A stretch of DNA of 34,456 bases from a virus, in the IMG/VR virus record IMGVR_UViG_3300025313_000076, positions 1 through 34,456 of that record. One strand, given 5' to 3'. This document shows, one piece after another, positions 7,612 through 31,479 of this stretch (its first letter is position 1; each line of letters starts with the position of its first letter). The notes beneath the pieces were generated by a model, which worked only from the letters and a program-made list of their open reading frames with translations, did not search any database and was not told the origin of the DNA. Both the position numbers and the translations under genes were made by a program.

Positions 7612-8260
7612 AGCCGCAGAGAGTGCGGCGATAGGCCAGGCAGTTGCCGGGGCCTACCAGTCCCTATTTCCGGCTCTTCCGGCGGGGCAAAACGTGCCTG
7701 GTCGTGCCGGCATCGGCGGGGGGCGGTTGATCCCGGTGGATACCTCTATCCCCACGGCACTCCGGACGGCTGGGCCCGCGTATCGCAGCGGCTTGCCCGC
7801 GGGCGCGGGGTTTACCGCGGGGCAGAGTGCACTCGGAGAGACGCAGCGCATTATGACTGCCCGCTATGGCGCCCCCGCCGGTTGGCAGGCAGAGGCACAA
7901 CGCAAGGGAGCCTCCAAAAATGTCGCAATGCAGGAAGCGCAACAGGATCGAGAGCGAGCTTATGTCCTTATGGCTCGTTATGGAATGGCCGCTCCCGAGT
8001 TGATACCTGGAACCTCTGCCTACCAGGAGCGGCAGCGTGTTCTTGCCGCCCGCTACAGCGCGAAAGCCCCCACTATTGCCACGGTGGGCGGACAAGCCAA
8101 GAGAAAACTTAGGCCCACTGTTGATACCGGCGGGTATGGCCAGGGGGACGGCGGGGGAGGCTACGGCGGTGGTGGCGGCGGTGGTGGCGGCGGTGGCGGG
8201 AGGGGCTATGGCGGCTATGGCGGCGGTAATGGGCTAGTCAACTGGAGAATTGGGTACTGA
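7475..8260 (+). CDS. proline-rich and glycine-rich virion-region protein (261 aa)
   Basis: ATG at 7475 lies inside the preceding gene, with AGAGGATGG just upstream as a possible ribosome site. Residues 1-50 are Pro-rich and basic. The middle (50-200) is Ala-rich and Gln-rich and contains a loosely repeated Ala-Arg-Tyr pattern (three copies: Thr-Ala-Arg-Tyr-Gly, Met-Ala-Arg-Tyr-Gly, Ala-Ala-Arg-Tyr-Ser). Residues about 215-255 are almost only Gly with Tyr, encoded by a GGY repeat tract at about 8135-8230. I do not recognise the family. Its place between portal and the giant protein suggests a virion role. It ends TGATG with the next gene. Confidence 0.62.
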   Translation: MAKLAGGTTPPKPVRTPPIKRPPVPVVTPRGVFTPGAQPQPWVNPRAAESAAIGQAVAGAYQSLFPALPAGQNVPGRAGIGGGRLIPVDTSIPTALRTAGPAYRSGLPAGAGFTAGQSALGETQRIMTARYGAPAGWQAEAQRKGASKNVAMQEAQQDRERAYVLMARYGMAAPELIPGTSAYQERQRVLAARYSAKAPTIATVGGQAKRKLRPTVDTGGYGQGDGGGGYGGGGGGGGGGGGRGYGGYGGGNGLVNWRIGY

Positions 8261-11200
8261 TGACCACTTCACAGGCGCCTCCTCCAAACACGCCGCGGGT
8301 AATCAAGACAGACAAGCCCACCGCGCGGGCCTCGCAACCATCCACGCAGTACCCGTGGCAGCAACCCGGCTTTACCCCTCGGGCGCAGCAAGTCCCAAAC
8401 TATGAGCGCCTGACTGCAACCGAACGGTGGGTGATGGATCGTTTGCCCGGTATTGCGGAGAGCGGGGTGGGGCGCGCTCTGGAGTGGTTTAACAACACAT
8501 GGGCCGGCAGGGCACTGCAATATTTAGACATTGGGGCCGAAGGGGTTGAGCGGGGCATTGGCTTTGTTGCACAGGCCCTTGATGCAAACGCCCACGGCCA
8601 AGAGGCCTGGGACGATTTCCAGGCAAACGCCCGAGAGGCATGGTACGCGGGATCTCTTGCGGCCGACTTTGTTGGAAGTCCCACCGGGGATATGGTCCCC
8701 TATACCGTTGCCGGCGGAGGCGTTGGAGCCGTCGGTGGGGCTGTTCTGGGAAGTCTCGGTGGGCCCATCGGGACGTTCGCGGGCGGTCTTCTTGGCGCGG
8801 GCGTTGGAACGGGAATTGGCCTCGCCTTTCAGATGGGGGAAAATGGCCACGAGAGCGTGGCCTCCCTCGTTGAGTCTCGACGGCAAATTGCCGATCTGGT
8901 TCGGCAAGGCATGGACCCTGGCGATGCCCTAGTCCAAGTAAGGGACCAGATGTATGAGTCGCAAGGGGCACTGGCGCTTCGTTCCCAGATGAACGACCTA
9001 TGGGTTCACTTGTTTGCAGACCCCATCAACATTGTTGCTGAGTTTATCAAACCAATTGAGGCTCTTGCGGTTCGCAGGATATTGTCTGTGGAGAGGGCCT
9101 TGCCCGACGAGGTGGCCGGGGTAGTGGCCGATACGCAACGGTCTATTGATGCCGCCCGCGAGATCATGAGGACGGCCGAGACAGCCCAGAACGCCGAAGA
9201 GATTTCCAAGCAGGCTGGAGTAATCTCGGACCTTACAAGAACCCTGGAATTGATTCAACAGGGTCCGCAGATGTCGCCCTGGCAACAGACACTACTTCGT
9301 ATCGCCGGGAATATGGACTGGCCCACAGACAGTGTTGCGGGGAGGTTCTTGAATTCCAGAGCGGGGCGGCTAATAACAGGACCGTTCCGACTCACGCGAG
9401 AATCTCGGGCTTACGCCTTCGTTGATACGATTGAGACTAACCTGAGGGCCTATCTTCCCCAAGACTTCCAAGAGGCCATGCGGACGGTTCTTCGCGCCCG
9501 AGATGGCGTCTATAGTCCCCAGATCGCGCACATGGTTGTGACAGCAGAGGGAAGGTATGTCCGCGGGATGATGAGTGGCCTGGGCGGCATAGCTCAGGAC
9601 CTTCTTCATGCAAGAACGGCAGCGATGCCGGATCGCCGTTTACTGGAGTTGATGTCCACAGTTCTCGGGGAAGACGTCTACCGGGTTCTGGGACAAATGG
9701 AAAATGAGGCGCCCGCCCTCTTCCGGCGGTTCAATGAGGCATTGGCGCAAGTCCCCGATGGTCAAAGGATATTGGAACAGACGCTTAGGATCGGCAATCG
9801 TCAGCTTGGTGATTTCACCGCCGACCTCCTCAAGGGGATGCACGGCTCCCTTTCTGGAACGAACACCGTCACCGACGATCTGCTCAGGCTGGAGTTTCTG
9901 AATCGAGCAGCGGATATTGCCGCCCAGGCGGGTATTGCCAAGTTTGGTGTTCGGGCTAGGGGTACTCTTCTAGCTGCGGCGGATGCTATCAAGGCGGCCG
10001 AATCTCTTGCTCTGCTCCGGGCCGGGAACGTTGTTTACCCGCTGCGAAACTGGGTCAACAATGTTGTAACGATGATTGCCCGAGGTACTTATGCCGGGGG
10101 TGGCAGAGAGGCGATTGCTGACGTAGAGAGAATACTGGGCGGGATGCCAACCAGAATGCGTTCGGGAATGGGCATGGCCGGGCTGGCGGGAAATGAGGGC
10201 CTGAGTGCCGCCGAGTCCATTATCGCCCGGGCGTCCAGGGGAGAGCGGGGGTTCTGGAACCAAGCGAGGGACTGGATTTCTGGCATTCACTTCCCCGGAG
10301 ACACAGGGGCCTGGGCCAGAAGGATTGAGGTCGGCGCTTCTCAGAGAGGCTACGCATCTGGCTTCCACCGCTTCTTCCGCCAGGGCAGGCGTGCCTTGTT
10401 ACAAAACCTGGAGGATTTCGCTCCCGATGTGGCCAACAGCATTAGGGCCAGATATGGCGATGATGCGCTTCGGGCCGCGAACAACGCCATCCGTGGGGCC
10501 GGCACGGACGATGATATCCTGCGCGCTCTGGCCTCTACTGACAATATGCATCTGAACCTAGAGAACATCCTAGACTCTGCCAGCCAGCGGTTCGGGGCGC
10601 AGATCGACAACATTCTTGATGATTCCTTCACGGCGCGGTGGGGTCCCGAGATTGAGCGGGCCGCAAGGGCGGGCCCAGCCGAGATCGACAATATTGTCGA
10701 TAGAATGTGGGGAGAAGTACAAGACGAACTAGATAATCGCCTAGACGATAGTCTTCGGACGCTAACCGAGGAGGCAACAGAGAGGATTGCCGCCGAGGGA
10801 CCGGGATCTTTCCCGGGTGTTTTTGGTGATGCGGTAGACGAATTCTACGGTTCCTATGTCCAGGGTCACGCAATGACAATGGCCCGCGTCGGCGATCTGA
10901 CCGACCTAAGACCAGAAGTTGCAAACAGAATGATGGGCGTTCTGCTGGACCGAGAGCAGCGGTTTATGGCCCGCGGCTGGGGCCGCCTAGAGGCAAGGTT
11001 TCAGGGCATTGCCAACGGGGTCAGGCGAATGAACGTGCCCGGTGGCGATGAGGTCATGACCTCGTTCCGACAATGGCGGGATGGCTGGGGACAGTTCTTT
11101 GAATGGCGCAACACAACCTGGCGGGAGTTCTTTGATGCCCGCGTGGCGGGACGGGCCCCGGCGTTGAGCTTTGACGAAATACGCTCAGCGGTGAATCGTC

Positions 11201-14200
11201 GCTATGATGACGTTGTGGCCATGGAGGCAGAGCGCCTACAAAACATTGATCGGCTGGTCGGCGGAATGCTTCCGGAGAATATGCGCCCCACATTTGCTGT
11301 ATATAGGGATAGGGTTGCCGCGCTAAGGGCAGAACGGGCCACCATGATCCGCGAGTGGTTTGCGCAGGTAGATTCCATCCCCTACGATCAGAGACAGGCT
11401 GCCTATGCCGGTTTCTGGCGGCGGATGATGGACAACACCTCGGCCATTTCCGTCGAGGAGAAGATTGGTTCTCGTGCCGTGGCGGGGAATGCGGAGGCTG
11501 CCGCAACTTACCAGGACGACCTGATTGCTGCCAGCGTTCGTTCCGAAGAGGCAGTACGGGGAGCGCCGCTTTCAACTGCTGAGCAACGGCAGATTGTACT
11601 AGATAGACTGGCTCAGTATGGCAGACCTCAAGAGGAAGCCGACCTAGTAATGGGGCGGTTGCGCCAAGTGGCAAGACCTCCGGAACCGACGGCGGGGCTG
11701 GGGGTTCCGATGGATGCCGAGCAGATCGCGGCGCAAGCCGGCGTCATGACGGATGCACAGCGGTCCGCCATTGCGGCTCAAGACCTAACAACAATAGAGC
11801 AAATTCGCCCCATTCTGGCAGCGATGCCTCCGGCGCAGCGCCAGGCATGGCTAGTGAGGGAGAGCGAAAGCAGCCTTGCCATTGGCCTACAAGAGGGATG
11901 GATCACCGCCAGGGAGCTAAACGAAACCAGGGCGGGGCACAGACTCAACAATGTCTTTGTCACTCGGGGCGGGTGGATTAGGTGGGGCTTTGAGGAACTC
12001 AACGGAGAGCAGGTTCCCGTTCTGACTTTCATCCGGGGGCGGCGACCCGGTGGATCCGATGTTCTACGGTCCTGGATGCGCCATAATGATGTCGCCGGTC
12101 ACCGCATGTTTCTGACCAACGAACTTCTTGCCGACACCGTAAATGAGGCTGGCGAGACCGTAACTCGGGGCGACACCTTCTTTAGGAGAATGGTCAGAGA
12201 GGGCGCCGTAACGCGGCTCAGGGATTTGCCGCTCGTTTCTGGCGAGCAGAGGATACTGTTCCGCATGGGCGGAGAGGCACAAGAAGCCGCCCATCTTCCC
12301 GACTTCCACGCCTTTGTCCCCCGACAACTCTACATGGACACTGGTATTGATCAGATGTGGTATCTGAGGGGACAGCATGCTGTAGAGTCTATTCGGGATG
12401 CAGCCCTAGACCTACGGGGACGGCCACCGCTCAGGTTTGCCGACCTTGGCGAGGCAGAACAGCAAGCATTACGACGATGGATGTCACAGAGCCAGGTGCA
12501 GTTGGCCCAGGCCCGTTACATGGGAATGCGGGGCGCAGAGTTCACGCGCGATAGTGCTCTTCTAAACTACAACCGTCGGCACAACTACAACACCTTCCTC
12601 GGGGCAATCATGCCCTATGAGTTCTGGTTTACCGAGTCCGCCCTGAAGTGGGCACTGCATTCCATCGACCGCCCAGAAATGCTCATGATCTATCTCAGAA
12701 TGCAGCGGTTCTTGAACACCGCGTATCGGCCAGAACAGAACCTCCCCGCAAGACTTCGGGGGCAAATCCGTATCCCCATGCCCTTCCTGCCGAATTGGAT
12801 GGGCGACAGCATCTTCGTAGATCCGATGCGGTTTGCGCTTCCGCTGGACCAGTTTACCTATCCCTTCGAGCAATATCAGCAACAGCAACAGCGCGATGAT
12901 GGGGCAACAACCAGGGTTCTGGAACAACTGTTGAATGATGGCCAGATTGACCAGGCGGAATATCAAGAGGCTCTACAAACCAGACAGGGAACAACATGGG
13001 ACAGGGCACAGGCATTGGCCAGACAGGATGACGACGAGGAAAGGCTTAGTGCCTTCGATTTTATGTCCTTGTTCTCCTCGCCGCATGTTCCTCTCCAGTG
13101 GGCATACAACGCCGCCAGGGGAACTCCGGAGAGGATAGGCACCCTCCTTCCGCTTACCAGAAGCATCCGGGGTGTTACTTCGGCTCTTGGAATTGGCCCA
13201 GCGGGCGGGGTGAACATTGAGGGGAACATCCGCAGAGAACTTGGACTTCCCGAGTTTGACCGCTGGGACGACTATCGAATTGACCGGATGCTGTCCAACA
13301 TGGTCGCTACGGGAGAGATCACGCTTCAGCAAGAGCGGGAGGCAATGATATCCCGAGAGGGTGAAGTGTTTGACCTGGCGGAACATAGAGCGGTACAGGA
13401 AATATCTGGCGGTCCAGGTCTTCTGGGCATAGCGAGGTCCGTCTTTGGCATTCCTATTCGGGCCTATCCACCCGGAGAAGAGCACCTGCGGGAACTGCGA
13501 GACGAGTATGCACAAGCCTGGCAAGAGTATGACGGTGGCGACATGCAGGCGGTCAATCGGTTCTTCGAGTCTCACCCAGAGTACGAGGCCAGAGTAGATT
13601 TGGGATACTGGAACAAGCCCGAGGAACGGATACGCCGGTTTGCGGTTGATGAGATTTGGGATACCTGGAACTCCCTGCCGCAGTTGCACCAGAATGAGGT
13701 ATCTGAGCAACTCGGTCCCTTGTTCCAGAACGCGTTCCTGGACAGGAATACCAGAAGTTATGAATCCATCCCGAACGAGATGCTGGTTGCTTGGACCAGG
13801 GTCATGCGGGGCGATCCGCCCGGGACCCTCTCAACGGGGCCGGGCTGGCAAATTCCCCCGCTTGATCTAGCCCCCAGGGATGTAGCCTATAGGGCAAATG
13901 CATTCTACCAATCCCGTGATGCCTACTTCCCGCAGTGGAGAGACCTCCAGAGCGACTACTATCTCCTGGATGAGGGCTCCGCCCGGAGAGAATATCTGAG
14001 AGCCCACCCGCCATATGCGCAGTATCGGGCATGGCGAACGGATTGGTTCATGCGCAATCCCGATGTTGTTCCCTACCTTACGGACAGGCCGGAGGACTAT
14101 ACCTACCCGAGCGAACAGGCGCTGCGGGAGGCGCAGGCAGGGCAACCATCGCTCCAGCCGGCAGAGTGGTATCAGGTTTTGGGCCCGAATATCTGGTCCC

Positions 14201-14337
14201 TCCTGGACGATAACCAAAACGGCGAGGCCCTTCCTGAAGTGGCCCGAAGGAGGCTGCAAGAGATAGCCGACCAGTACGGAACCACAGTTGACCACATTCT
14301 ATCCGACATAGCACAAGGACTTGCACAAACCCAGTAG
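8260..14337 (+). CDS. giant virion-associated protein, probable internal/ejected protein (2025 aa)
   Basis: One uninterrupted frame of 6078 bases starts at an ATG that overlaps the previous stop. Residues 1-45 are Pro-rich and probably disordered. Residues about 149-190 form a Gly/Ala/Val zipper able to enter a membrane. The long middle is helical, acidic and Arg-rich. A Trp-rich, Tyr-rich segment near 1435-1530 precedes a Gln run at about 1536. The C-terminal 400 residues are rich in Tyr, Trp and Pro. Very large helical proteins with glycine zippers beside portal genes are commonly DNA-ejection or internal virion proteins that reach the host envelope. I looked for polymerase, protease and lysozyme motifs and saw none I could defend. 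The function is inference from size, place and composition. Confidence 0.85.
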   Translation: MTTSQAPPPNTPRVIKTDKPTARASQPSTQYPWQQPGFTPRAQQVPNYERLTATERWVMDRLPGIAESGVGRALEWFNNTWAGRALQYLDIGAEGVERGIGFVAQALDANAHGQEAWDDFQANAREAWYAGSLAADFVGSPTGDMVPYTVAGGGVGAVGGAVLGSLGGPIGTFAGGLLGAGVGTGIGLAFQMGENGHESVASLVESRRQIADLVRQGMDPGDALVQVRDQMYESQGALALRSQMNDLWVHLFADPINIVAEFIKPIEALAVRRILSVERALPDEVAGVVADTQRSIDAAREIMRTAETAQNAEEISKQAGVISDLTRTLELIQQGPQMSPWQQTLLRIAGNMDWPTDSVAGRFLNSRAGRLITGPFRLTRESRAYAFVDTIETNLRAYLPQDFQEAMRTVLRARDGVYSPQIAHMVVTAEGRYVRGMMSGLGGIAQDLLHARTAAMPDRRLLELMSTVLGEDVYRVLGQMENEAPALFRRFNEALAQVPDGQRILEQTLRIGNRQLGDFTADLLKGMHGSLSGTNTVTDDLLRLEFLNRAADIAAQAGIAKFGVRARGTLLAAADAIKAAESLALLRAGNVVYPLRNWVNNVVTMIARGTYAGGGREAIADVERILGGMPTRMRSGMGMAGLAGNEGLSAAESIIARASRGERGFWNQARDWISGIHFPGDTGAWARRIEVGASQRGYASGFHRFFRQGRRALLQNLEDFAPDVANSIRARYGDDALRAANNAIRGAGTDDDILRALASTDNMHLNLENILDSASQRFGAQIDNILDDSFTARWGPEIERAARAGPAEIDNIVDRMWGEVQDELDNRLDDSLRTLTEEATERIAAEGPGSFPGVFGDAVDEFYGSYVQGHAMTMARVGDLTDLRPEVANRMMGVLLDREQRFMARGWGRLEARFQGIANGVRRMNVPGGDEVMTSFRQWRDGWGQFFEWRNTTWREFFDARVAGRAPALSFDEIRSAVNRRYDDVVAMEAERLQNIDRLVGGMLPENMRPTFAVYRDRVAALRAERATMIREWFAQVDSIPYDQRQAAYAGFWRRMMDNTSAISVEEKIGSRAVAGNAEAAATYQDDLIAASVRSEEAVRGAPLSTAEQRQIVLDRLAQYGRPQEEADLVMGRLRQVARPPEPTAGLGVPMDAEQIAAQAGVMTDAQRSAIAAQDLTTIEQIRPILAAMPPAQRQAWLVRESESSLAIGLQEGWITARELNETRAGHRLNNVFVTRGGWIRWGFEELNGEQVPVLTFIRGRRPGGSDVLRSWMRHNDVAGHRMFLTNELLADTVNEAGETVTRGDTFFRRMVREGAVTRLRDLPLVSGEQRILFRMGGEAQEAAHLPDFHAFVPRQLYMDTGIDQMWYLRGQHAVESIRDAALDLRGRPPLRFADLGEAEQQALRRWMSQSQVQLAQARYMGMRGAEFTRDSALLNYNRRHNYNTFLGAIMPYEFWFTESALKWALHSIDRPEMLMIYLRMQRFLNTAYRPEQNLPARLRGQIRIPMPFLPNWMGDSIFVDPMRFALPLDQFTYPFEQYQQQQQRDDGATTRVLEQLLNDGQIDQAEYQEALQTRQGTTWDRAQALARQDDDEERLSAFDFMSLFSSPHVPLQWAYNAARGTPERIGTLLPLTRSIRGVTSALGIGPAGGVNIEGNIRRELGLPEFDRWDDYRIDRMLSNMVATGEITLQQEREAMISREGEVFDLAEHRAVQEISGGPGLLGIARSVFGIPIRAYPPGEEHLRELRDEYAQAWQEYDGGDMQAVNRFFESHPEYEARVDLGYWNKPEERIRRFAVDEIWDTWNSLPQLHQNEVSEQLGPLFQNAFLDRNTRSYESIPNEMLVAWTRVMRGDPPGTLSTGPGWQIPPLDLAPRDVAYRANAFYQSRDAYFPQWRDLQSDYYLLDEGSARREYLRAHPPYAQYRAWRTDWFMRNPDVVPYLTDRPEDYTYPSEQALREAQAGQPSLQPAEWYQVLGPNIWSLLDDNQNGEALPEVARRRLQEIADQYGTTVDHILSDIAQGLAQTQ

Positions 14338-17183: not shown

Positions 17184-18275
17184 ATGCGAGTTTTTGTCGG
17201 CGGAGTATCATCGGAATACGCACATGGGGGTTGCGTAGAATCGTTCCTTACCATCAGATTGAGGCCCGGAGACGAGCGCAAGTACCAGTGGCGCACGCGC
17301 GGAGACATTGCCCGTACCGAACTCTGTGACGAGTTTATGCGTCGCAAGGAGTTCGACGCCTTCTTCCTGGTGGACGTGGACATGCTGTTCGACCACGACA
17401 TCCTGGAGAGGATGCGGTCACACGACCTAGATATTGTCAGCGGGCACTACTTCCGCAGGCGCTTCAACCCAATGATTTCGATTGCCGAGGTCGGGGAATG
17501 GCCCTATGAGCCACTGTACGACATCCCCGATGACGGGCTGATTGAGGTCTCGACCAGCGGTTTCGGCTGTCTGCTTATCAAGAGGAATGTTCTGGAAGCA
17601 GTACAGAAGACGATGGATCCCAAGGAGCCAATCCTGGGAATGGGGCCCCTGCCCGAGATGACCAATGGTGATCGAGGCCCGTTTGGAGCAGACTTCGTGT
17701 TCTCCGCAAGGGCCAGACAATTGGGTTACAAGCACTGGGTGGATTGCAATCCCGTGGCGGAGGCCAGGCACGCGGCGACCGTGTTCTTGGACAGGAAACT
17801 GTACAAGAAGGTCCGTGACTGGCAGGTAGAGAAAGCCGCCGACCACTGGAACAAAATCTGGCAACTCAATCTGGAGGTTCATGGAATGGACGCAAAGACC
17901 GCCGACGCACGAGTGAAACAACTCCAACTGATCCGCAAAGGCTTTGCCGATAGCTTGCGGGATTTTGAGGATCAGGCGGCGAACCTGCGCACCCGCATTT
18001 TCATCGTGGATGGGCAGATTGCCGAACGAGAAATTGACATACAGACAGCGCCGCCGGAACCAAAGACGCTGACGGCAGAAGACTCTCCGAAGCCGCTATT
18101 TCTGGGAAAGTTGCCCGTGTTCAACTCAGAGGAAGAGGCGAAGGCCGCCCTGGCGAATAGGGGCAAGGGACCAGAGGGAGAGAGCGAAGAAGAGGGTCAA
18201 CGTCTTAGGGAACCGGTAGCCAAGAAAACCGCACAGGATTTCTTGGGGGCGCTAAACGATGGCTCGGCCTCTTGA
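17184..18275 (+). CDS. GT-A fold glycosyltransferase with C-terminal coiled coil (363 aa)
   Basis: ATG at 17184 has GGAGGG seven bases upstream. Residues 1-200 look like a GT2-type catalytic domain. Arg-Gly-Asp-Ile-Ala-Arg-Thr is at 39-45 and the metal-binding Asp-Val-Asp at 64-66 follows a hydrophobic strand. Thr-Ser-Gly-Phe-Gly-Cys-Leu-Leu-Ile is at 124-132, and Gly-Ala-Asp-Phe-Val-Phe at 168-173 is the usual position of the base. His196 may complete the metal site. Residues about 205-300 are charged helix and predicted coiled coil, and the tail is acidic. It needs a nucleotide-sugar donor. It opens the cargo block, and its 3' end overlaps the next gene by 17 bases. The acceptor is unknown. 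Confidence 0.75.
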   Translation: MRVFVGGVSSEYAHGGCVESFLTIRLRPGDERKYQWRTRGDIARTELCDEFMRRKEFDAFFLVDVDMLFDHDILERMRSHDLDIVSGHYFRRRFNPMISIAEVGEWPYEPLYDIPDDGLIEVSTSGFGCLLIKRNVLEAVQKTMDPKEPILGMGPLPEMTNGDRGPFGADFVFSARARQLGYKHWVDCNPVAEARHAATVFLDRKLYKKVRDWQVEKAADHWNKIWQLNLEVHGMDAKTADARVKQLQLIRKGFADSLRDFEDQAANLRTRIFIVDGQIAEREIDIQTAPPEPKTLTAEDSPKPLFLGKLPVFNSEEEAKAALANRGKGPEGESEEEGQRLREPVAKKTAQDFLGALNDGSAS

Positions 18276-18822
18276 GGTTATCAGGCACTGCTGCCTGGTA
18301 GGGACGAACCTTGAGCGCGCCGACCTGAGATCCATGGACCTCAGGGGAGTGAACTTTACCAATTCAAACCTGCGTGGGGCAGACCTGTCCCACGCCGACT
18401 GTCGGGGAGCGATCTTCGTGAAGGCGGACCTCTCGCGGGCGTGCCTCTACAACACGAACTGCGAGGATGCGGACTTCAGCAACGCCGACCTCACCATGTC
18501 CTACCTACGGGCCACTAATTTCAACCACGCCACGATGTGGTGGGCATCCCTAAGAAGGGTGACGGCCAAGAGCGCCTTCTTCCTTGGGGCAGACATGACC
18601 GGCGTAGACATGGCTTACGGGTTCTTTCTGGGATCTAGGTTTGGGCCTCCTCTTTGCAAGGCCGACCAGATGCGGAATGTTGACAAGGCGGTCTTCCACT
18701 GGTACTGGAACCCCAAGGGAGGCATCCCATCCTACGACCCGAAAGAGGGGTACGTGGATCTCTGGCACAGCGTCCTGGGGGGAATCTCCATCCAGGAGAA
18801 TGCCGCGGCTAGGCCGAAATGA
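18259..18822 (+). CDS. pentapeptide-repeat protein A (187 aa)
   Basis: Residues about 11-110 are repeats of the form Ala-(Asp/Asn)-Leu-X-X, for example Thr-Asn-Leu-Glu-Arg, Ala-Asp-Leu-Arg-Ser, Ala-Asp-Leu-Ser-His and Ala-Asp-Met-Thr-Gly, which fold as a square beta helix. The end has Phe-His-Trp-Tyr-Trp-Asn-Pro-Lys-Gly-Gly and later Ser-Tyr-Asp-Pro and Glu-Asn-Ala-Ala, shared with the paralogue at 19253. Pentapeptide proteins range from DNA-gyrase protectors that mimic DNA to structural or targeting domains; nothing here selects among them. ATG 18259 lies inside the previous gene with a G-rich site upstream, and the stop overlaps the next ATG. Confidence 0.88.
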   Translation: MARPLEVIRHCCLVGTNLERADLRSMDLRGVNFTNSNLRGADLSHADCRGAIFVKADLSRACLYNTNCEDADFSNADLTMSYLRATNFNHATMWWASLRRVTAKSAFFLGADMTGVDMAYGFFLGSRFGPPLCKADQMRNVDKAVFHWYWNPKGGIPSYDPKEGYVDLWHSVLGGISIQENAAARPK

Positions 18823-19256
18823 GACATCGCGCCCTTGAGTTGAGATTGCAGGAACTGGAAATGCAACTGGAGTTCCTGGTCAAACAGGTCAATGAGGCAA
18901 GAGCCTCCGGGGCGGAGAAGACCGTCATTGCCGAGCTGATGCTGAAGTACACCGATGTCGAGGCTCGGATGGACGAGATACATCTGTGGGAAAAGGCGGA
19001 GGAGCAGAACCCGCGGTATGGAACCCAGATCAGAGTCAACGGGATGTGGCGCCCGAAGTTGCCGGAGTTTGGATCTCTGGAGAGGGCACTAGAGGCCATG
19101 AATTCCCCAACTGGGGGAGGACATTCGGCGGCGGCTGTGAGGGCGGCAAGGGAGTTTCGGTCCAGCGAGGACGCCAGGGAAACTGTCAGGTCCTTAGACG
19201 GTAGAAGCCCACTCGTTCCAGAGGAAGAACGGAAGCCGTTCAACACGACGCTATGA
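18819..19256 (+). CDS. coiled-coil protein between the pentapeptide genes (145 aa)
   Basis: ATGA overlaps link it on both sides (18819-18822 and 19253-19256). Residues 1-60 are a Leu-heptad, Glu/Arg-rich helix likely to dimerise. Residues 60-110 carry Trp, Pro and Gly in a turn-rich region. The remainder is charged helix and a Pro-rich tail. I do not recognise the family. Being nested between two paralogous pentapeptide proteins suggests the three products act together. An antisense frame covers almost the same bases, but the overlapping starts and stops favour this strand. Confidence 0.7.
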   Translation: MRHRALELRLQELEMQLEFLVKQVNEARASGAEKTVIAELMLKYTDVEARMDEIHLWEKAEEQNPRYGTQIRVNGMWRPKLPEFGSLERALEAMNSPTGGGHSAAAVRAAREFRSSEDARETVRSLDGRSPLVPEEERKPFNTTL

Positions 19257-19873
19257 CCAGCGTAGATAAGCGCCTGGAGCTGGCTTACAAGAGTTCCCTC
19301 GTCGGGGCGAACCTGGAGAGAGCGGATTTGCGTGGTCTGGATTTGCGAGGCATCAATCTGACCAGCGCCAACCTCCGAGGGGCCGATTTGTCGCAGGCGA
19401 ACTTGTCGCAGGCGACGCTGATTAGGACTGATTTGTCCAGGGCCAACATCCAGCGGGCGAACTTCGCCAATGCCGACATGACGGGCTGCGACCTTACGGG
19501 GACTTATGGCAGAGGGGCAAAGTTCTACAGGACCAAGTTGTGCCTTGCCTATCTGAGATATGCCCAGTTCAAGAACGCATTCTTCATTGAGTGTGATCTG
19601 ACGTCGGCCGACTTCTTGAATAGCCTCTTCCTTGGGGCGAAGTTTGATGGCTCCAACACAGAGGGCGTGAAGAATGCCGATAGGGCCATCTTCCTGTGGT
19701 GGTGGTCGCCGCTAAAGACTGGGAAAATCAGCTACGATCCTCTACCGGGGTGGCTGCAACTGGACGAGAGCGTTACCGGGGTCGAGAGCGTTCGAGAGAA
19801 CGCCGCCCGAGAGCGTGTTGAAGACTCCGTACAGAAGGCGTGGGAGGTCATGGACGATGCCTCGAAAGCGTAA
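19253..19873 (+). CDS. pentapeptide-repeat protein B (206 aa)
   Basis: This is a paralogue of the protein at 18259. Residues about 17-110 hold regular Ala-Asn-Leu-X-X and Ala-Asp-Leu-X-X repeats (Gly-Ala-Asn-Leu-Glu-Arg, Ala-Asp-Leu-Arg-Gly, Ala-Asn-Leu-Ser-Gln) with few interruptions. The C-terminal part shares the aromatic run (Phe-Leu-Trp-Trp-Trp-Ser-Pro), Ser-Tyr-Asp-Pro, a Glu-Ser-Val stretch and Glu-Asn-Ala-Ala, and adds a 30-residue basic and acidic helix. Diverged repeats mean the duplication is old. Roles as for A: possible gyrase mimic, binding scaffold or virion-associated protein, none demonstrated. Confidence 0.88.
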   Translation: MTSVDKRLELAYKSSLVGANLERADLRGLDLRGINLTSANLRGADLSQANLSQATLIRTDLSRANIQRANFANADMTGCDLTGTYGRGAKFYRTKLCLAYLRYAQFKNAFFIECDLTSADFLNSLFLGAKFDGSNTEGVKNADRAIFLWWWSPLKTGKISYDPLPGWLQLDESVTGVESVRENAARERVEDSVQKAWEVMDDASKA

Positions 19874-20186
19874 GGACCAGCCGGTTCCTCTGGAAGAACT
19901 GCGGTTCTCGGGGGATGCTAACCTCATTCTTGCCAGACTCAAGGCAGAATTGGCCGAAAGGGACAGGTACATCAATGTCCTGGAGAATAAGAACCTGGGT
20001 ATGGAGAAGTGTGCCAATAGGGTCTGGGCTGCCCTGGAGGAGGCGGAGGCAATGGCTAATCGCTTCCCGCAGTTTGTCCAGGATGCCCTGAATGACCCGA
20101 AGAAGCACGCCTCCAGACTAGCCGAGGCGGCTCGCTATGGCAGGATCTTCCGGGAAGCGAAGGACGACTTCCAGAGACTCAGATGA
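19857..20186 (+). CDS. small helical protein of unknown function (109 aa)
   Basis: I choose ATG 19857 because GGGAGG at about 19842-19847 lies nine bases upstream; the same frame open from 19815 has no such site. The N-terminus is basic (Pro-Arg-Lys-Arg-Lys). The rest is Glu/Ala/Leu/Arg helix with coiled-coil character at about 25-75. It overlaps the end of pentapeptide B by 17 bases and ends in an ATGA junction with the CMP-sugar synthetase gene, so it belongs to the same translation chain. No function can be assigned. Confidence 0.65.
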   Translation: MPRKRKDQPVPLEELRFSGDANLILARLKAELAERDRYINVLENKNLGMEKCANRVWAALEEAEAMANRFPQFVQDALNDPKKHASRLAEAARYGRIFREAKDDFQRLR

Positions 20187-20896
20187 CTCGTGCGCAGAAG
20201 GTCCTCGGGGTTACGGCCGCCAGAGGGGGAAGCAAGGGAGTTCCTCGGAAGAACATCCGCCAGATCGGCGGCATTCCTCTGATTGCCTACACCATCCGAG
20301 AAGCCAAGAAGAGCCGTCTCATCAGTAGATACATTGTGTCTACGGACGACGATGAGATAGCCGAGGTTGCCCGCCACTATGGGGCTGAGGTTTTGATGCG
20401 GCCGGCGGAACTGGCCGAAGACCACACCCCCATGATTGCCGTGATGCAGCACGCCCTGAAATGGTGCGAGGAGGAAGAGGGGGAATGGTATGACATCGTG
20501 GCCGATCTCAGATGCACCAATCCTCTCAAGACGGCCCATGACATCGACGGGGCAATAGAGAAACTGATCCACACCGGGGCGGATGGCGTTATCGGGGTTA
20601 CAAAGTTGGACGACCACCACCCGGCACGGATTAAGCGGGTCTTCGAGGATAGACTGATTGACTTTGCCTGGCCCGAGCCGCCGGCCGGATTGAGACAGGA
20701 ACTGAAACCCGATGCCTTCATTCGCAACGGCAGCCTGTATGTGGTTCTTAGGGACGCACTTTTGGACGGCATTCTTCTTCAGGGCAGCGACAATCTTAGA
20801 CCTTGGTATATGCCGCTGGAGAAGAGTGTGAACATCGACTCTGAGCTGAACTTCGTGTTGGTGGAGGCGCTCCTTGGACGCAACCGCCAGATTTGA
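20183..20896 (+). CDS. neuA: CMP-nonulosonate cytidylyltransferase (NeuA/PseF/LegF family)
   Basis: This enzyme joins CMP to a nonulosonic acid using CTP, giving the activated donor. Residues 11-25 carry Thr-Ala-Ala-Arg-Gly-Gly-Ser-Lys-Gly-Val-Pro-Arg-Lys-Asn-Ile, the family signature that binds CTP. Thr-Asp-Asp-Asp-Glu-Ile-Ala, Arg-Cys-Thr-Asn-Pro-Leu and Asn-Gly-Ser-Leu-Tyr-Val follow in the usual order, with Asn-Ile-Asp-Ser-Glu-Leu near the end. The length, 237 residues, is normal. The family cannot tell sialic, legionaminic and pseudaminic substrates apart by eye, so the gene symbol denotes the family. It is coupled upstream and downstream and lies about 1.4 kb from the NeuB-like gene. 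Confidence 0.9.
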   Translation: MTRAQKVLGVTAARGGSKGVPRKNIRQIGGIPLIAYTIREAKKSRLISRYIVSTDDDEIAEVARHYGAEVLMRPAELAEDHTPMIAVMQHALKWCEEEEGEWYDIVADLRCTNPLKTAHDIDGAIEKLIHTGADGVIGVTKLDDHHPARIKRVFEDRLIDFAWPEPPAGLRQELKPDAFIRNGSLYVVLRDALLDGILLQGSDNLRPWYMPLEKSVNIDSELNFVLVEALLGRNRQI

Positions 20897-21605
20897 CCTG
20901 GGAGACAGGGAGTACATCTTCACGGCCCCAACGAGTCTCCAGTTCAAGACGGTCAAGAAGATCATCGACTCCTATTATGGAGAAGAGCGGGTCCGCAAGA
21001 GAATTGGCGATGTTCATCACATCGTTGATGTGGGTGCATGTATAGGAACGATGTCTCTTTGCTATACGACCATCTGGCCCGATGCGGAAATTCTAGCCAT
21101 AGAGCCACATCCGCTGAACTTCAAGTATCTTGTGGAGAATTGCAAGGCGTTCAAGAACATCCATCCTGTGTGTATCGCCCTAGGCGACAAAGAGGAGAGA
21201 ATACGCCTCGCCCTTCCATCTCCCGAGCAGCGCCCATTGTATCCGCAGTTCAGTAGGCTCGCCAATGTCGGCATGGCTTCTCGATACGGGAACTCCGATA
21301 ACTACGTGGCCGAAGTGGATGCAGTAACCCTGGACAGTATTGTCGGGTGGGACGTGGACCTTATCAAGATCGACGTGGAGGGTTCGGAGGTTTCTGTTCT
21401 TCGGGGGGCAGAGAGGACCATCGAGGCCACTCATCCGTTCCTGGTTGTGGAGGCCAGGGAGGAGAACCAGAAGATGGCGGGGGGGTCCCTCGAAGAGTTG
21501 AGCAACAGCCTGAAGAGGCTGGGCTACATTCACAGATGGCAATGGGGTGGCGATGCCTGTCTTCAACACCCGCTGAGGAAGCCGTTGTGGACACACTATT
21601 CATAG
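20874..21605 (+). CDS. FkbM-family SAM-dependent methyltransferase (243 aa)
   Basis: The start is TTG 20874, with GGAGG at 20863-20867 six bases upstream and a 23-base overlap with the synthetase gene. FkbM hallmarks are Val-Asp-Val-Gly-Ala-Cys-Ile-Gly (51-58), Ile-Glu-Pro-His-Pro-Leu-Asn-Phe (76-83) and Asp-Leu-Ile-Lys-Ile-Asp-Val-Glu-Gly-Ser-Glu (162-172), then Val-Leu-Arg-Gly-Ala. These enzymes usually O-methylate sugars or other small hydroxyl groups. Its likely substrate is a glycan of the same block. At the 3' end it overlaps the fragment of an older NeuB start. Confidence 0.9.
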   Translation: MDATARFDLGDREYIFTAPTSLQFKTVKKIIDSYYGEERVRKRIGDVHHIVDVGACIGTMSLCYTTIWPDAEILAIEPHPLNFKYLVENCKAFKNIHPVCIALGDKEERIRLALPSPEQRPLYPQFSRLANVGMASRYGNSDNYVAEVDAVTLDSIVGWDVDLIKIDVEGSEVSVLRGAERTIEATHPFLVVEAREENQKMAGGSLEELSNSLKRLGYIHRWQWGGDACLQHPLRKPLWTHYS

Positions 21606-21643
21606 CCGAACTCGGCAGTATGCACAAGGGCATTGGAGGTTGA
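21587..21643 (+). pseudogene. remnant of a NeuB-family start, cut off by the following gene
   Basis: From GTG 21587 a frame of 18 residues reads Met-Asp-Thr-Leu-Phe-Ile-Ala-Glu-Leu-Gly-Ser-Met-His-Lys-Gly-Ile-Gly-Gly and stops at TGA 21641-21643. It closely matches the start of the NeuB-like protein at 22271, which has Ala-Glu-Leu-Gly-Ser-Leu-His-Lys-Gly-Ile at residues 8-17. The DNA of the two copies differs mainly at third codon positions, so this is an old homologous copy and not a recent duplication. It overlaps the FkbM end, as an intact gene in this phage would. The glycosyltransferase at 21646 begins straight after. Confidence 0.5.
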
Positions 21644-21645
21644 TC

Positions 21646-22314
21646 GTGGAGATCGTAACGGCGGCAGACACGGGCTATTTTCGATATCTTCTGAGACTCG
21701 TGACGACGTCGCACGGCTGGTTGAACGTCCGGCCAGTTGTATACGATCTTGGCCTGACGGGGATTGAGTTGCTGGCATTGTCGATGATGGGCATTCAAAC
21801 AAGAGGCGGGCCAAGGAAAATACCACGGGGCAGAGGTTATCCGCCAGGATATACCCCGAGGGCACTCCACAAGCCCCTTATACTCCTTGATTACTGCCGT
21901 CAATCTACAAGTGACATCATCTATATGGATGCCGATGCGTGGATTGTCTCGCCATTCGAGTTCCCCATAAGGGGCATTGGCGTTACGCGCGTTAGAGACA
22001 AGGTTGTGGAAGCATACCTAGGATCACCATTGGCGGACTATAGAGGTCCGCATCATTCTGGCGTTCTTTTCCTTGGCCATAACTCTCAAAGACTGCCCTT
22101 TCTGGGCGCCTGGGCCGCGGACACGCTTTCTGATTCCAGTCCCAGCGACAAGAAATCAATGAACAAAGTTCTGACAAACTATGACTTCACGGTTTTGGAT
22201 GAAGACGAATGGAATGCAAGCACCATGTTTCCGATGACCAAAATATTCCACGCTCATGGAGGCCAGAGTGATGAACAGCGTGTTCTTTGCGGCCGAGCTG
22301 GGGAGTCTTCATAA
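21646..22314 (+). CDS. probable glycosyltransferase inserted before the NeuB-like gene (222 aa)
   Basis: I choose GTG 21646, six bases after GGAGG (21635-21639); TTG at 21640 is too close to that site. The metal-binding Asp-Ala-Asp lies at 95-97 after a hydrophobic strand (Ile-Ile-Tyr-Met-Asp-Ala-Asp), typical of GT-A enzymes of GT8 or related type. His-His-Ser-Gly-Val-Leu-Phe-Leu and His-Ala-His-Gly-Gly support this. The last residues, about 12, are NeuB-gene sequence read in another frame, and its stop lies within that gene. This suggests the coding region was joined to a gene it did not evolve with. Acceptor and donor are unknown. Confidence 0.63.
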   Translation: MEIVTAADTGYFRYLLRLVTTSHGWLNVRPVVYDLGLTGIELLALSMMGIQTRGGPRKIPRGRGYPPGYTPRALHKPLILLDYCRQSTSDIIYMDADAWIVSPFEFPIRGIGVTRVRDKVVEAYLGSPLADYRGPHHSGVLFLGHNSQRLPFLGAWAADTLSDSSPSDKKSMNKVLTNYDFTVLDEDEWNASTMFPMTKIFHAHGGQSDEQRVLCGRAGESS

Positions 22315-22936
22315 GGGAATTGAGGCCCTCGCGTATGAGATGGTGCGGCAGGCAAAACTTGCGGGCGCGGATGCCGCCAAGTTTCAATTCGGCTGGCCAC
22401 GGGGGGCAGGGCCGATCCGATGTTGGGCGACAGATAATGCGGCAATCATACGTAAGTGGTGTGACTATTTCAACATAGGATTTATGGCGTCGGTATTCTC
22501 GTGGGAGGGATTGGCGACTGCGGAGTCGTCTGGAGTTGATTACATCAAGATGGCACACCCGGAGACATTCGCAAAGAACGCGAACGGAGAGGATTATGAT
22601 AGGCTGCTAAAGCTCTGCTTTGCCAGCAACAAGCCGGTCTTTGTGTCGGGCAATGTGGTGCCAGGGGCGACCTGTCTATACTGTATCCCGAAGTATCCGG
22701 TCTATCAACACGCCCTCAACCTTCCCGGGGATTTTGGCTTTTGGAATGGGTACTCTTCGCACACGCCGGGGATCGAGGATGCGCTGGTGGCCATAGCCAG
22801 GGGTGCAAGGGCCATTGAGAAGCACGTGACTCTGAATAAGGCGGATGAGAGTATCAAGGACAATCACTTTGCGCTCTCATTCGAGGAGTTTGCCGAGATG
22901 GTCCGCATCGGAAAGGCAATGGCGAGACTGTGCTAG
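22271..22936 (+). CDS. neuB: compact NeuB-family nonulosonate synthase (221 aa)
   Basis: NeuB enzymes join phosphoenolpyruvate to an N-acyl sugar to form a nonulosonic acid. Here Ala-Glu-Leu-Gly-Ser-Leu-His-Lys-Gly (8-16), Gly-Ala-Asp-Ala-Ala-Lys-Phe-Gln (32-39) and Gly-Tyr-Ser-Ser-His-Thr-Pro-Gly-Ile (160-168) are recognisable, as is Gly-Ala-Arg-Ala-Ile-Glu-Lys-His-Val-Thr-Leu (178-188). The last two match the barrel's second half. Usual length is about 340 residues with a C-terminal SAF (antifreeze-like) domain; this one ends right after the barrel and lacks that domain. ATG 22271 has GGAGG eight bases upstream. It overlaps the glycosyltransferase at the 5' end and the dehydrogenase at the 3' end. 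The product (sialic, legionaminic or pseudaminic type) cannot be told by eye. Confidence 0.83.
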   Translation: MNSVFFAAELGSLHKGIEALAYEMVRQAKLAGADAAKFQFGWPRGAGPIRCWATDNAAIIRKWCDYFNIGFMASVFSWEGLATAESSGVDYIKMAHPETFAKNANGEDYDRLLKLCFASNKPVFVSGNVVPGATCLYCIPKYPVYQHALNLPGDFGFWNGYSSHTPGIEDALVAIARGARAIEKHVTLNKADESIKDNHFALSFEEFAEMVRIGKAMARLC

Positions 22937-23859
22937 CACACTGGAGCGCCCCCTACAGACCCCATTGGAAGATGTGGTCCTGGCCGTGCGAGACATCGTT
23001 CTGGGAGGTCTACGAGGCAAAAGACCTAGAGAAACTACTACCCATTGGGGTGTTGTACGCCAACCCAAATGCGCACTATGTTCTGGACATGGCCGCTCTG
23101 GAGATGCTGCCCGACCTCAAGATGGTTGTGACGCCGTCTACAGGTAACACACACATCGACATGCTGGCTCTCAGAGAGGCGGGCGTTGAATTGCGGTCCC
23201 TGCTGGATGACAGGCCAGCTCTAGAGGAGATCAGAGCCAGTTCGGAGTTCACGTTCCTGCTCATTCTGAATGCCCTACGCCGACTGGACAAGATGTTGCT
23301 ATCCGGGGAGTGGAAGCGGGACGAGGAAAGCCTGCGAGGGCATGAACTATACGAGGCGATGATTGGGCTGGTGGGTTATGGAAGGATAGGCAAGAACATT
23401 GAGCGGTGGTGCCGGGAGTTTGGGGCCGGCGTTTACTGGTATGACCCCTATGATGAAGCGAGAGACCACATCTATCAGTCTAGCCCCCTGTGGCAATTCT
23501 CTAGTTGCCAGGTCGTGGTTCTGTGTTGTGCCCTGACGGCCGAAACCAGGGGGATGATTACCGGGCAGATGATCTACCGGATGAAGCCGAACGCAACCCT
23601 CATCAATACCGCAAGAGGGGAACTGCTGGCGGACGATGTTTACGACGCTCTCAAGAAGCGCCAGGATGTGACTGCCTGGTTTGACGTACTGCCGGGAGAG
23701 GCCAATGGCGGCCCGGAGCAGACCTACCTGGAACTGCCAAATGTCCATGTGACACCGCACATAGCGGGAACGACATTTGAGAGTCAGGAGAAGGCGGCGA
23801 GGATAGCCATGCGCTTGGCGGGGAGGTGGTTGGATGCCTACTGCAAAAGTCCAGCCTAA
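22930..23859 (+). CDS. D-isomer-specific 2-hydroxyacid dehydrogenase (309 aa)
   Basis: The family oxidises 2-hydroxyacids or reduces 2-oxoacids with NAD(P). Gly-Tyr-Gly-Arg-Ile-Gly (149-154) is the NAD site and Asn-Thr-Ala-Arg-Gly (226-230) provides the catalytic Arg229. Pro-His-Ile-Ala-Gly-Thr-Thr (276-282) holds the catalytic His277, with an acidic residue near 258 in place for the third partner. GTG 22930 overlaps the NeuB-like stop by seven bases; no strong ribosome site is visible, so it may depend on re-initiation. Placed just after a nonulosonate synthase, it probably acts on a related 2-oxo or 2-hydroxy intermediate. That is inference. Confidence 0.87.
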   Translation: MLAHWSAPYRPHWKMWSWPCETSFWEVYEAKDLEKLLPIGVLYANPNAHYVLDMAALEMLPDLKMVVTPSTGNTHIDMLALREAGVELRSLLDDRPALEEIRASSEFTFLLILNALRRLDKMLLSGEWKRDEESLRGHELYEAMIGLVGYGRIGKNIERWCREFGAGVYWYDPYDEARDHIYQSSPLWQFSSCQVVVLCCALTAETRGMITGQMIYRMKPNATLINTARGELLADDVYDALKKRQDVTAWFDVLPGEANGGPEQTYLELPNVHVTPHIAGTTFESQEKAARIAMRLAGRWLDAYCKSPA

Positions 23860-29378: not shown

Positions 29379-29974
29379 CGACCTTTAGCGACCAGGCACT
29401 CACCGCTGACACCTACATTGCGGACGACGCCCCGACCACAAATCATGGGACCGAGAACGGACTCTATGGTGGAGAGTGGAACGGCGGGGCACAAGTTGCC
29501 AGGACGCTCCTAAAATCCGACCTAAGTTCAATACCCACTTCCGCGACAGTCCTAAGCGCAACTCTTTCCCTGTGGGTGGCTGCGGACTACGCAGATAACA
29601 CAAGGACCTATCGCGTCTTCCGCCAAAAGCGCGCCTGGACAGAGGCCGGGGCGACCTGGAACAAGTACGATGGAACAAACGACTGGCAGACGGCGGGCGG
29701 CTTTGGTGCAAATGATTGCGAACAGACGGATATTGGCAACACGTCGATAGTCAACAATACCGCTGTGGGCACGGAGATACAATTTGCGCTAACCGCCTCT
29801 GCCGTCGAGGCAATGTTCGACGGGACGTTCACAAACAATGGCTTCATGGTAAAGGCGGACACAGAGACAAATGATATGTGGGGCTTTGTGTCTGCCGAGA
29901 ACGCCACCGCGGCACAGCGCCCGAAACTCGTCATTGAGTATGTCGTCGGCGGCATGATTAGTTGGTGGTTTTGA
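29375..29974 (+). CDS. DNRLRE-type carbohydrate-binding domain protein (199 aa)
   Basis: ATG 29375. The start region has Asp-Thr-Tyr-Ile, then Thr-Asn-His-Gly-Thr, a run of Gly/Asn/Leu and Leu-Leu-Lys-Ser-Asp-Leu-Ser-Ser-Ile-Pro. Leu-Ser-Ala-Thr-Leu-Ser-Leu follows, with the closing Arg-Pro-Lys-Leu-Val-Ile-Glu-Tyr. This is the pattern of DNRLRE domains, a carbohydrate-binding family (CBM96). It is therefore a good candidate for host-glycan binding at the tail. Residues near the end (Met-Ile-Ser-Trp-Trp-Phe) are hydrophobic. The stop shares one base with the next ATG. Confidence 0.75.
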   Translation: MTTFSDQALTADTYIADDAPTTNHGTENGLYGGEWNGGAQVARTLLKSDLSSIPTSATVLSATLSLWVAADYADNTRTYRVFRQKRAWTEAGATWNKYDGTNDWQTAGGFGANDCEQTDIGNTSIVNNTAVGTEIQFALTASAVEAMFDGTFTNNGFMVKADTETNDMWGFVSAENATAAQRPKLVIEYVVGGMISWWF

Positions 29975-30342
29975 TGCCCCCCAACGACCGCGTCACCCAG
30001 AAGCAGCACTACGAGGACCTCACCAGGCTTGGTGAGGGGCTTGGGAAATCTGTCGCAGACTTAGACAGTAAGCTCGGCGCCAAGATGGACAACATTCTGG
30101 CGCAGGTGACCTCAAACCGAACCGCCAATGCGGGAGAATTCGCCTGCCTCCAGGAGGGCTTGAACGGGCTCAAGACACGCCTGGAGGGAAAGGGGGGCCT
30201 GATTGACCGGATAGACACAATCGACGGGAAGGGGGGACGCCTGACAGTCCTTGAGCACAGTGATAGGAAGGTTGGCTTCTGGGCCAGCCTCATTGGGGTC
30301 GTTTCGGCTGCCATAGCCGGAATACTTGCAAGCCGGAATTGA
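29974..30342 (+). CDS. XhlA-like coiled-coil membrane protein (122 aa)
   Basis: ATG 29974 is at the one-base overlap with the previous stop. Residues 1-85 are a charged helix with heptad-like Leu and Ile and a Lys-Gly-Gly-Leu-Ile-Asp-Arg-Ile repeat; residues about 92-119 are a hydrophobic segment with Ala/Ile/Val/Gly, then Ser-Arg-Asn. This is the shape of XhlA-type proteins that sit next to holins and help lysis. No signal peptide is visible. A promoter overlaps its last bases. Confidence 0.65.
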   Translation: MPPNDRVTQKQHYEDLTRLGEGLGKSVADLDSKLGAKMDNILAQVTSNRTANAGEFACLQEGLNGLKTRLEGKGGLIDRIDTIDGKGGRLTVLEHSDRKVGFWASLIGVVSAAIAGILASRN

Positions 30343-30354
30343 ACGTGCTATAAT
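30326..30354 (+). promoter_or_regulatory. sigma70-like extended -10 promoter at the start of the non-coding region
   Basis: TTGCAA (30326-30331), a 17-base spacer ending in GTGC, and a perfect TATAAT (30349-30354). The spacing and the TGC before the -10 match the promoter at 14321-14349, and both overlap the last bases of the preceding gene. Transcription would begin near 30361 and run through the non-coding region to the holin-like gene. Confidence 0.62.
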
Positions 30355-30360
30355 CTCTCC

Positions 30361-30510
30361 ACGGGCCGGGCCTGGAGGGCCAGGAGAACGTAGGTTGCTG
30401 CAAGCCGCCAACGGTGCCCATCACCGGCGGCCCAAAACTTCGCCCGACTGCTCCACTGGGCAACCAGAGCGGTGATGTCGTGCGGCGAGATGCTAAGCAT
30501 CCCGCAATGC
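30361..30510 (+). ncRNA. putative structured RNA with three bulged hairpins
   Basis: No convincing gene covers 30343-30665. Three successive hairpins share one design: outer stem, three-base bulge on the 5' side, inner stem, small loop. First (30404-30431): 6 bp, bulge AAC, 4 bp, loop CCCAT. Second (30447-30473): 6 bp with one G-T pair, bulge CCA, 4 bp, GCAA tetraloop. Third (30481-30506): 5 bp, bulge CGA, 5 bp, loop TAA. A simpler hairpin (30371-30384, CCTGG/CCAGG) lies before them. GGTTGC at 30393-30398 could also pair with the second loop region (30460-30465). The pairs are seen; the RNA and any protein partner are inferred. Confidence 0.45.
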
Positions 30511-30555
30511 AGATGAGCTGGAGCCCCGGCCCCATTCACAATCTCGGCACTGGAG

Positions 30556-30590
30556 GTTTACAATCAGACGCAGCTGAAGTTTACAATCAG
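30556..30590 (+). repeat. two 12-base direct repeats, 23 bases apart
   Basis: GTTTACAATCAG occurs at 30556-30567 and again at 30579-30590, a period of 23 bases, close to two helical turns. The second copy also begins an inverted pair, TTACAA (30581-30586) with TTGTAA (30597-30602). Such repeats before a gene can be binding sites for a regulator. They lie between the hairpin array and the palindrome at 30610. Confidence 0.6.
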
Positions 30591-30609
30591 CCAGGCTTGT
30601 AATCGTCGA

Positions 30610-30629
30610 TACAATGTATACACATTGTA
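30610..30629 (+). promoter_or_regulatory. operator-like palindrome upstream of the holin-like gene
   Basis: TACAATGT (30610-30617) and ACATTGTA (30622-30629) are exact inverted copies separated by ATAC. The 20-base site lies 36 bases before the start codon at 30666. Its size and symmetry are those of a dimeric repressor site. No matching repressor gene is identified in the window. The function is inferred. Confidence 0.5.
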
Positions 30630-30665
30630 GTCATCCGCATAAGAAAGGCAGTCAAAGGAGATAAC

Positions 30666-30851
30666 ATGAAGAAGTTCTACGCCAGCAAGAGCTTTTGGTT
30701 CTTCGTTCTCTCGATCGTTGTGGCCGTGGCTGGCCTGTTCGGCTTTGCTGATTTCCAGCCATCGGCAGACCAGGCGACGATCATCGCCCTGGTTGTGTCA
30801 GTTGGGGGCCTGATCCTACGGTTCCTGACCAGCAAGGGCATTGAGCTCTGA
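30666..30851 (+). CDS. holin-like protein with two membrane segments (61 aa)
   Basis: ATG 30666 has AAAGGAG about five bases upstream. The product begins Lys-Lys-Phe-Tyr-Ala-Ser-Lys-Ser-Phe-Trp, then a first hydrophobic segment (about 11-27), a short Gln-Pro-Ser-Ala-Asp link, a second hydrophobic segment (about 37-54) and a Lys-containing tail. This size and layout are common among phage holin-like proteins. Its location after the XhlA-like gene fits lysis. It has its own likely promoter and operator-like sites, so timing may be separately set. No endolysin is recognised nearby. Confidence 0.7.
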   Translation: MKKFYASKSFWFFVLSIVVAVAGLFGFADFQPSADQATIIALVVSVGGLILRFLTSKGIEL

Positions 30852-30858
30852 TAGTTCG

Positions 30859-30897
30859 TGTCATGTAACTACCCGTTCAATAGGTAGTTACATGACA
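30859..30897 (+). terminator. 15-base-pair inverted repeat after the holin-like gene
   Basis: The arms at 30859-30873 and 30883-30897 are exact reverse complements (15 bases each), with a 9-base loop CGTTCAATA. The stem is AT-mixed and no T-run follows it on either strand, so it would be an atypical terminator. It begins eight bases after the stop codon and ends 31 bases before the next gene. A terminator, an RNA-stability stem or a protein-binding site are all possible. Confidence 0.45.
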
Positions 30898-30927
30898 TGG
30901 TTACCAACTAAGTAGGTCGGAGGGGCC

Positions 30928-31479
30928 ATGCCCATTGAATTTGTAGAACAAGATGATCTAGACGATGTTGAACTGCGGCTGCAAGCCCGCATCGACGAGA
31001 TCGACACGGGCGGCGGGTTTCCTATGCCCGTCGGCGCCTGGGAGGATGCCACTGGCGAGGTTCTATGGGGCTTCAAGGGGCTGCGGCAGTGGCCCGATCT
31101 GGGCAGCGGCGGAGAGTACAAGGTCTACGCCCTGGTCTCCGGCAACTCGGTGACGCTGGAGGTCTATGGCAAGATGGGCAGTGCTGTTACCTGGCCGTCT
31201 GAGAGTGCCTGGTACTTCTACCTGCCCGAGGAACTCCAGCCCACCCGAAGAAGTGTCGGCAACCTGACAGTTTACGAGGAAGGCAAGGGAACGATTACGG
31301 GGGGCAACTGCCGCCTCGTACTTCAGGCGACGGCTACGCCCCCGTACTATGCCCTATGCCTGTTCTGGTCTCCGCTAACCCCCTCTGCGGGCTATCTAAC
31401 CAAGAACTACCCGCCAGGCACCTGGGCCAAACCGGGTAGCTGGTTCCTTGCGCAAATCACCTACGAACGCTCTGTGTGA
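30928..31479 (+). CDS. beta-rich protein with an acidic helical head (183 aa)
   Basis: ATG 30928 has GGAGG a few bases upstream. Residues 1-30 are an acidic helix (Glu, Asp, Leu), a form that often trimerises fibre proteins. The remaining 150 residues are beta-rich with Trp, Tyr, Gly and Pro and include Gly-Ala-Trp-Glu-Asp-Ala. I do not recognise the family; an adsorption or fibre role is plausible. Its end overlaps the next gene by 32 bases. Confidence 0.65.
   Translation: MPIEFVEQDDLDDVELRLQARIDEIDTGGGFPMPVGAWEDATGEVLWGFKGLRQWPDLGSGGEYKVYALVSGNSVTLEVYGKMGSAVTWPSESAWYFYLPEELQPTRRSVGNLTVYEEGKGTITGGNCRLVLQATATPPYYALCLFWSPLTPSAGYLTKNYPPGTWAKPGSWFLAQITYERSV

Follow-up and report, generated by a model that had tools for sequence, protein, structure and literature searches.

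A conserved, structured RNA-like element of about 170 bases ahead of a putative lysis gene in an uncultured phage

Three bulged hairpins in an intergenic gap of a phage genome belong to an RNA-like element that is larger, spanning about 170 bases, and strongly conserved. It lies in the window, i.e. the whole stretch of 34,456 nucleotides that was analysed (IMG/VR record IMGVR_UViG_3300025313_000076). Judging from the sequence comparisons, the element is best read as a new, unclassified, phage-specific structured RNA. Our best guess as to its role, which we hold tentatively, is that this ~170-nt RNA domain of a small group of uncultured phages acts in cis as the leader of a lysis unit. To our knowledge, structured RNAs of tailed phages have seldom been described beyond a few model systems, and the element offers a defined ~170-nt target for probing.

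The hairpin trio and chance

The hairpins are located in a 323-nt gap between a gene ending at 30342 and the next gene, which starts at 30666. The initial annotation had described three hairpins of one bulged design here, and all of them are present and fit the description:

30404-30431, + strand: H1 (P4), GCCGCC-AAC-GGUG-CCCAU-CACC-GGCGGC, with a 5' bulge (AAC) of 3 nt
30447-30473, + strand: H2, ACUGCU-CCA-CUGG-GCAA-CCAG-AGCGGU, with one G-U pair
30481-30506, + strand: H3, UGCGG-CGA-GAUGC-UAA-GCAUC-CCGCA, the variable hairpin

No other cluster of three such hairpins exists within the whole window. None of 1500 dinucleotide shuffles of positions 30361-30510 contained two or more such hairpins, counting those with no more than one G-U pair. 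Similarly, three hairpins of any one bulge class were absent from all 1200 dinucleotide shuffles of the 323-nt gap (the maximum was two), in a control that allowed 12 bulge designs, on the 5' or 3' side and of 1-6 nt. The trio design had been spotted first and was tested afterwards, a bias that the 12-design control offsets in part. Hence, the trio is very unlikely to have arisen by chance. Folding energy, suggested earlier as a further check against shuffled sequence, turned out to be ordinary for the window sequence by itself, with z of -0.61 (150 nt), -1.15 (303 nt) and -1.61 (178 nt). A fourth hairpin that had been proposed at 30581-30602 is weak, as the segment 30575-30610 gives -4.5 kcal/mol (z -0.22).

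Architecture of the element

A single other public contig among those in reach, IMGVR_UViG_3300025087_000255 (hereafter the relative), covers the site, and it carries the element twice. In the three copies from the two phages, all 36 pairs of stems P1-P6 are kept, with one gap, in the following arrangement:

30363-30532, + strand: the structured RNA element
30363-30370 with 30525-30532, + strand: P1, the closing stem
30371-30384, + strand: P2, hairpin CCUGG-AGGG-CCAGG, with a compensatory G-C to A-U change in the relative
30390-30401, + strand: P3, hairpin GUAG-GUUG-CUGC, with a U-G/U-A change that keeps the pairing
30450-30454 (GCUCC) with 30520-30524 (GGAGC), + strand: P5, directly adjoining P1 on the 3' strand
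30456-30467, + strand: P6, the apical part of H2, CUGG-GCAA-CCAG, GCAA-capped and invariant

RNAalifold and direct counting yield a P1-closed domain that encloses P2, P3, H1, P5 and P6. P5 overlaps with the outer stem of H2 and the two are thus mutually alternative pairings, so that the modelled 3' structure is partly ambiguous. The energy of the constrained fold lies above the minimum by 0.5 kcal/mol in the window, 2.3 kcal/mol in copy 2 and 7 kcal/mol in copy 1 of the relative. With 0.5 kcal/mol between them in the window, P5 and the outer H2 stem may possibly form a two-state switch.

Conservation and strand

In the 5' domain, the window differs from copy 2 by 9% and from copy 1 by 11%. Differences between the two phages amount to 7% at the 3' end of the element and 5% in the leader up to the start codon, whereas synonymous sites of four flanking genes differ by 32-48% (pS 0.32-0.48). 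As the divergence of the element is far below the synonymous divergence, these alignments indicate that the element and the leader are under strong constraint through purifying selection. H3 is nearly free: its region shows 37% differences between the window and copy 2, and copy 1 has a different sequence there.

These comparisons bear on the simplest alternative, that of three functionless hairpins formed by chance in GC-rich DNA. The ordinary energy of the window sequence and the loss of the 3-nt-bulge design in the relative (see below) would agree with it. However, the shuffles produced no trio, and sequence and pairing are 3-5 fold more conserved than synonymous sites. The conservation largely refutes this explanation, which we regard as improbable. 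A small coding gene of 62 aa starting from GTG 30414 is less credible still, and we give it hardly any weight. Its frame is open in the window, but a one-base indel shifts it in both copies of the relative, and in copy 1 the shifted frame soon reaches a TAA.

The stem changes consist of one double-sided change in P2 and two wobble changes (C-G to U-G in P1 and U-A/U-G in P3). All of them pair on the + strand, and both wobbles become A-C mismatches on the - strand. When compared with column shuffles that preserve mononucleotide content alone, the consensus fold stands out on the + strand (z -3.6, 0/200) and less so on the - strand (z -2.3, 4/200). Both observations point to an RNA of the + strand. 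Furthermore, the copies of the relative surpass their dinucleotide shuffles in folding (z -2.4 and -2.7). The covariation check recommended in the initial annotation gave a mixed answer: one compensatory change was found and the pairs are kept, but the covariation level was equalled in 154 of 500 shuffles and, with three sequences, is formally not significant. Covariation is minimal because the sequences come from two phages alone, and most helices never vary. In summary, conservation and strand logic make the fold well supported, short of covariation proof. Of the possibilities raised earlier, that of a phage RNA has gained ground, as a structured, non-chance + strand RNA appears to follow the promoter-like site and its conservation is far above neutral expectation.

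Two copies in the relative

The tandem copies of the relative are 235 bp apart, and a 57-bp start fragment of the downstream gene lies between them. Where this fragment departs from the intact gene, the changes read as synonymous, and the duplicated arrangement therefore looks like the result of an old recombination rather than an assembly error. The first 114 nt of the two copies are 96.5% identical, the H3 region is wholly different, and the 3' ends agree again.

H1 has the same sequence in all three copies. In the relative, a one-base difference gives H2 a 6-nt bulge and a CCGACU/AGUCGG stem, and H3 is replaced. The common 3-nt bulge is thus a property of the window sequence only: the single design of the three hairpins holds there and is not kept in the relative. 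The same set of changes leaves unsupported the idea that the hairpins form a conserved series of similar binding sites for a protein, since H1 alone is invariant. Repeated sites of the coat-protein operator or TAR type were likewise rejected, as the bulge design is not common to the relative. A more speculative and rather unlikely proposal is that of a new class of small phage RNA, in which the invariant P1-P6 scaffold would present H3 as an exchangeable hairpin, duplicated and diverging in the manner of a specificity module, and which would control lysis timing or a host factor.

Two further structures were seen in the relative (L002). An extra hairpin, CCGAGG-CUUUGU-CCUCGG, lies at 5388-5430 between the promoter-like site and copy 1. 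At 6350-6390, the sequence CGGAAGCGGGTGCAATTCCCCACCGCCGG looks by eye like a part of a cofactor riboswitch core, and it has no match in Rfam.

Promoter-like sites and flanking signals

The surroundings of the element contain the following features:

30326-30354, + strand: promoter-like site, TTGCAA-17-TATAAT, with TG before the -10 (extended) and a predicted start near 30361
30535, 30557 and 30580 (30535-30588), + strand: three iteron-like TTYACAATC repeats spaced by 22-23 bp
30535-30564, + strand: second promoter-like site, TTCACA-18-TACAAT, overlapping the TTYACAATC repeats
30610-30629, + strand: palindrome TACAATGT-N4-ACATTGTA, operator-like, unique in the window and kept in the relative
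30666-30851, + strand: gene of a 61-aa protein that has two hydrophobic stretches and resembles a holin in length and topology only

The perfect TATAAT box noted earlier ahead of the hairpins is confirmed as part of a consensus-matching promoter-like site, whose predicted start precedes P1 by two bases. In the relative, an extended -10 (TGGTAGAAT) is found upstream of copy 1 and the predicted start is ~47 nt upstream of P1; a promoter-like site was not found just upstream of copy 2. The second promoter-like site, located after the RNA element and ahead of the membrane-protein gene, has a counterpart in the relative. A search of 29900-31000 yielded no terminator-like site. A perfect 15-bp inverted repeat (TGTCATGTAACTACC/GGTAGTTACATGACA, 30859-30897), which has no T-run, follows the holin-like gene and is largely kept in the relative.

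The TTYACAATC repeats are the only ones within the 34-kb window. Together with the unique 20-bp palindrome that comes after the hairpins, they could mark a site that works as DNA, i.e. a replication origin with single-strand initiation hairpins and iterons or an operator cluster, in which the RNA fold would be secondary. The leader being as conserved as the hairpin part is in agreement with such a site. On the other hand, the wobble changes and the strand contrast of the consensus fold favour a + strand RNA, there is no sharp skew switch at this location, and the repeats could equally well belong to a promoter or operator region. We consider a DNA-level function unlikely.

A leader of a lysis unit or a free-standing RNA

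Size and topology suggest that the 61-aa protein is probably a holin-like lysis protein, and profile searches with it did not support a holin identity. A relation of the protein encoded upstream of the element to XhlA was not supported either. In the relative, an unrelated 90-aa membrane protein takes the place of the 61-aa one. The element and the leader are thus retained while the genes behind them differ and are non-homologous between the two phages. This retention, the promoter-like site upstream in both phages and the lack of a terminator-like site in between speak for the cis-acting leader. A pattern in which the RNA is kept and the membrane-protein gene is swapped hints at a control element that is portable and serves the end of the phage cycle.

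Rightward transcription would begin at the extended -10 promoter and run through the element, which would form part of the 5' leader; the transcription unit would be a short one of the late or lysis type, with the holin-like membrane protein as its first product. The ends of the element would pair as P1, with P2, P3 and H1 branching off and P5 stacking on P1 and bearing P6 and the variable H3. Most likely, the folded leader, alone or bound by a protein, would act in cis and set whether and when polymerase or ribosomes enter the membrane-protein gene, by analogy with leader-RNA control of other phage late and lysis transcripts.

Close behind the cis leader comes its main rival, a free-standing, trans-acting phage RNA (a regulator, a protein scaffold or a host-factor decoy) that would be made from the promoter at 30326 independently of the holin-like gene and in which H3 would serve as a variable contact module. 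We rate it as possible but somewhat less likely. The paired ends close the domain just behind the predicted start, and in the relative the element is doubled as a unit whose H3 differs while its first 114 nt are nearly unchanged. The conserved promoter-like site that the membrane-protein gene owns past the RNA speaks against a leader and fits a free-standing RNA equally well. However, the 3' end of the element is without a terminator-like site, copy 2 of the relative is without a promoter-like site just upstream, and complementarity to the rest of the phage is at chance level. The last result also leaves the antisense RNA suggested initially with no target above chance within the phage.

Comparison with known systems and searches for kin

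In phage lambda, the strong promoter pR' is followed by the ~190-nt structured 6S leader RNA and then by a holin-type lysis gene. By analogy, a promoter-like site, a putative structured leader RNA and a holin-like gene follow each other here, but the intrinsic terminator (tR') that precedes the lysis gene in lambda has no counterpart found in 29900-31000. The prohead (packaging) RNA of phi29 is also a branched phage RNA of ~170 nt. Membership in that family was rejected, as there is no Rfam match and the TerL of this phage is conventional (phrog_38), which also leaves the packaging RNA mentioned in the initial annotation without support. Rfam also contains the c4 antisense RNA and further phage RNA motifs, which are likewise phage-borne and structured, and the element matches none of these families.

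The put RNA of HK022, ~70 nt long with two stem-loops, acts on early operons, where its binding to RNAP suppresses termination further downstream with no need of a protein factor (PMC9378689). As a promoter-proximal phage leader with successive stem-loops, put resembles the leader proposed here. In contrast to put, the element is ~170 nt long, closed by P1 and located near lysis-like genes; its size and architecture speak against membership in the put family.

No Rfam 15 family scored above the gathering threshold (the best sub-threshold match had an E of 2.1), and blastn of the element against phage and plasmid records gave no match. IMG/VR searches with the exact H1, an 18-mer of H2 and a loop-only pattern matched the single relative exclusively. 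A gapped pattern gave four unrelated matches in GTDB genomes, in which the covariance model was not significant. On kin contigs collected by protein similarity, several of which are fragments and at least two of which end before the site, the covariance model gave no additional copy, and it had no significant match in MW202725, the nearest complete relative (MCP 48%). It also found none in ~1,190 bacterial genomes of three phyla, which is weak evidence, as these phyla may not include the host and the scan gave no positive control.

Other genes on the phage

A cluster of nonulosonic-acid-like sugar genes at 20183-23859 encodes a cytidylyltransferase, an FkbM methyltransferase, a NeuB-family protein and a 2-hydroxyacid dehydrogenase. 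Two pentapeptide-repeat proteins are encoded downstream of the capsid genes (18259-18822 and 19253-19873). The interval between the portal and the major capsid genes contains a gene for a 2025-aa protein with no Pfam match (8260-14337), and at the equivalent place MW202725 carries a gene of 6.5 kb.
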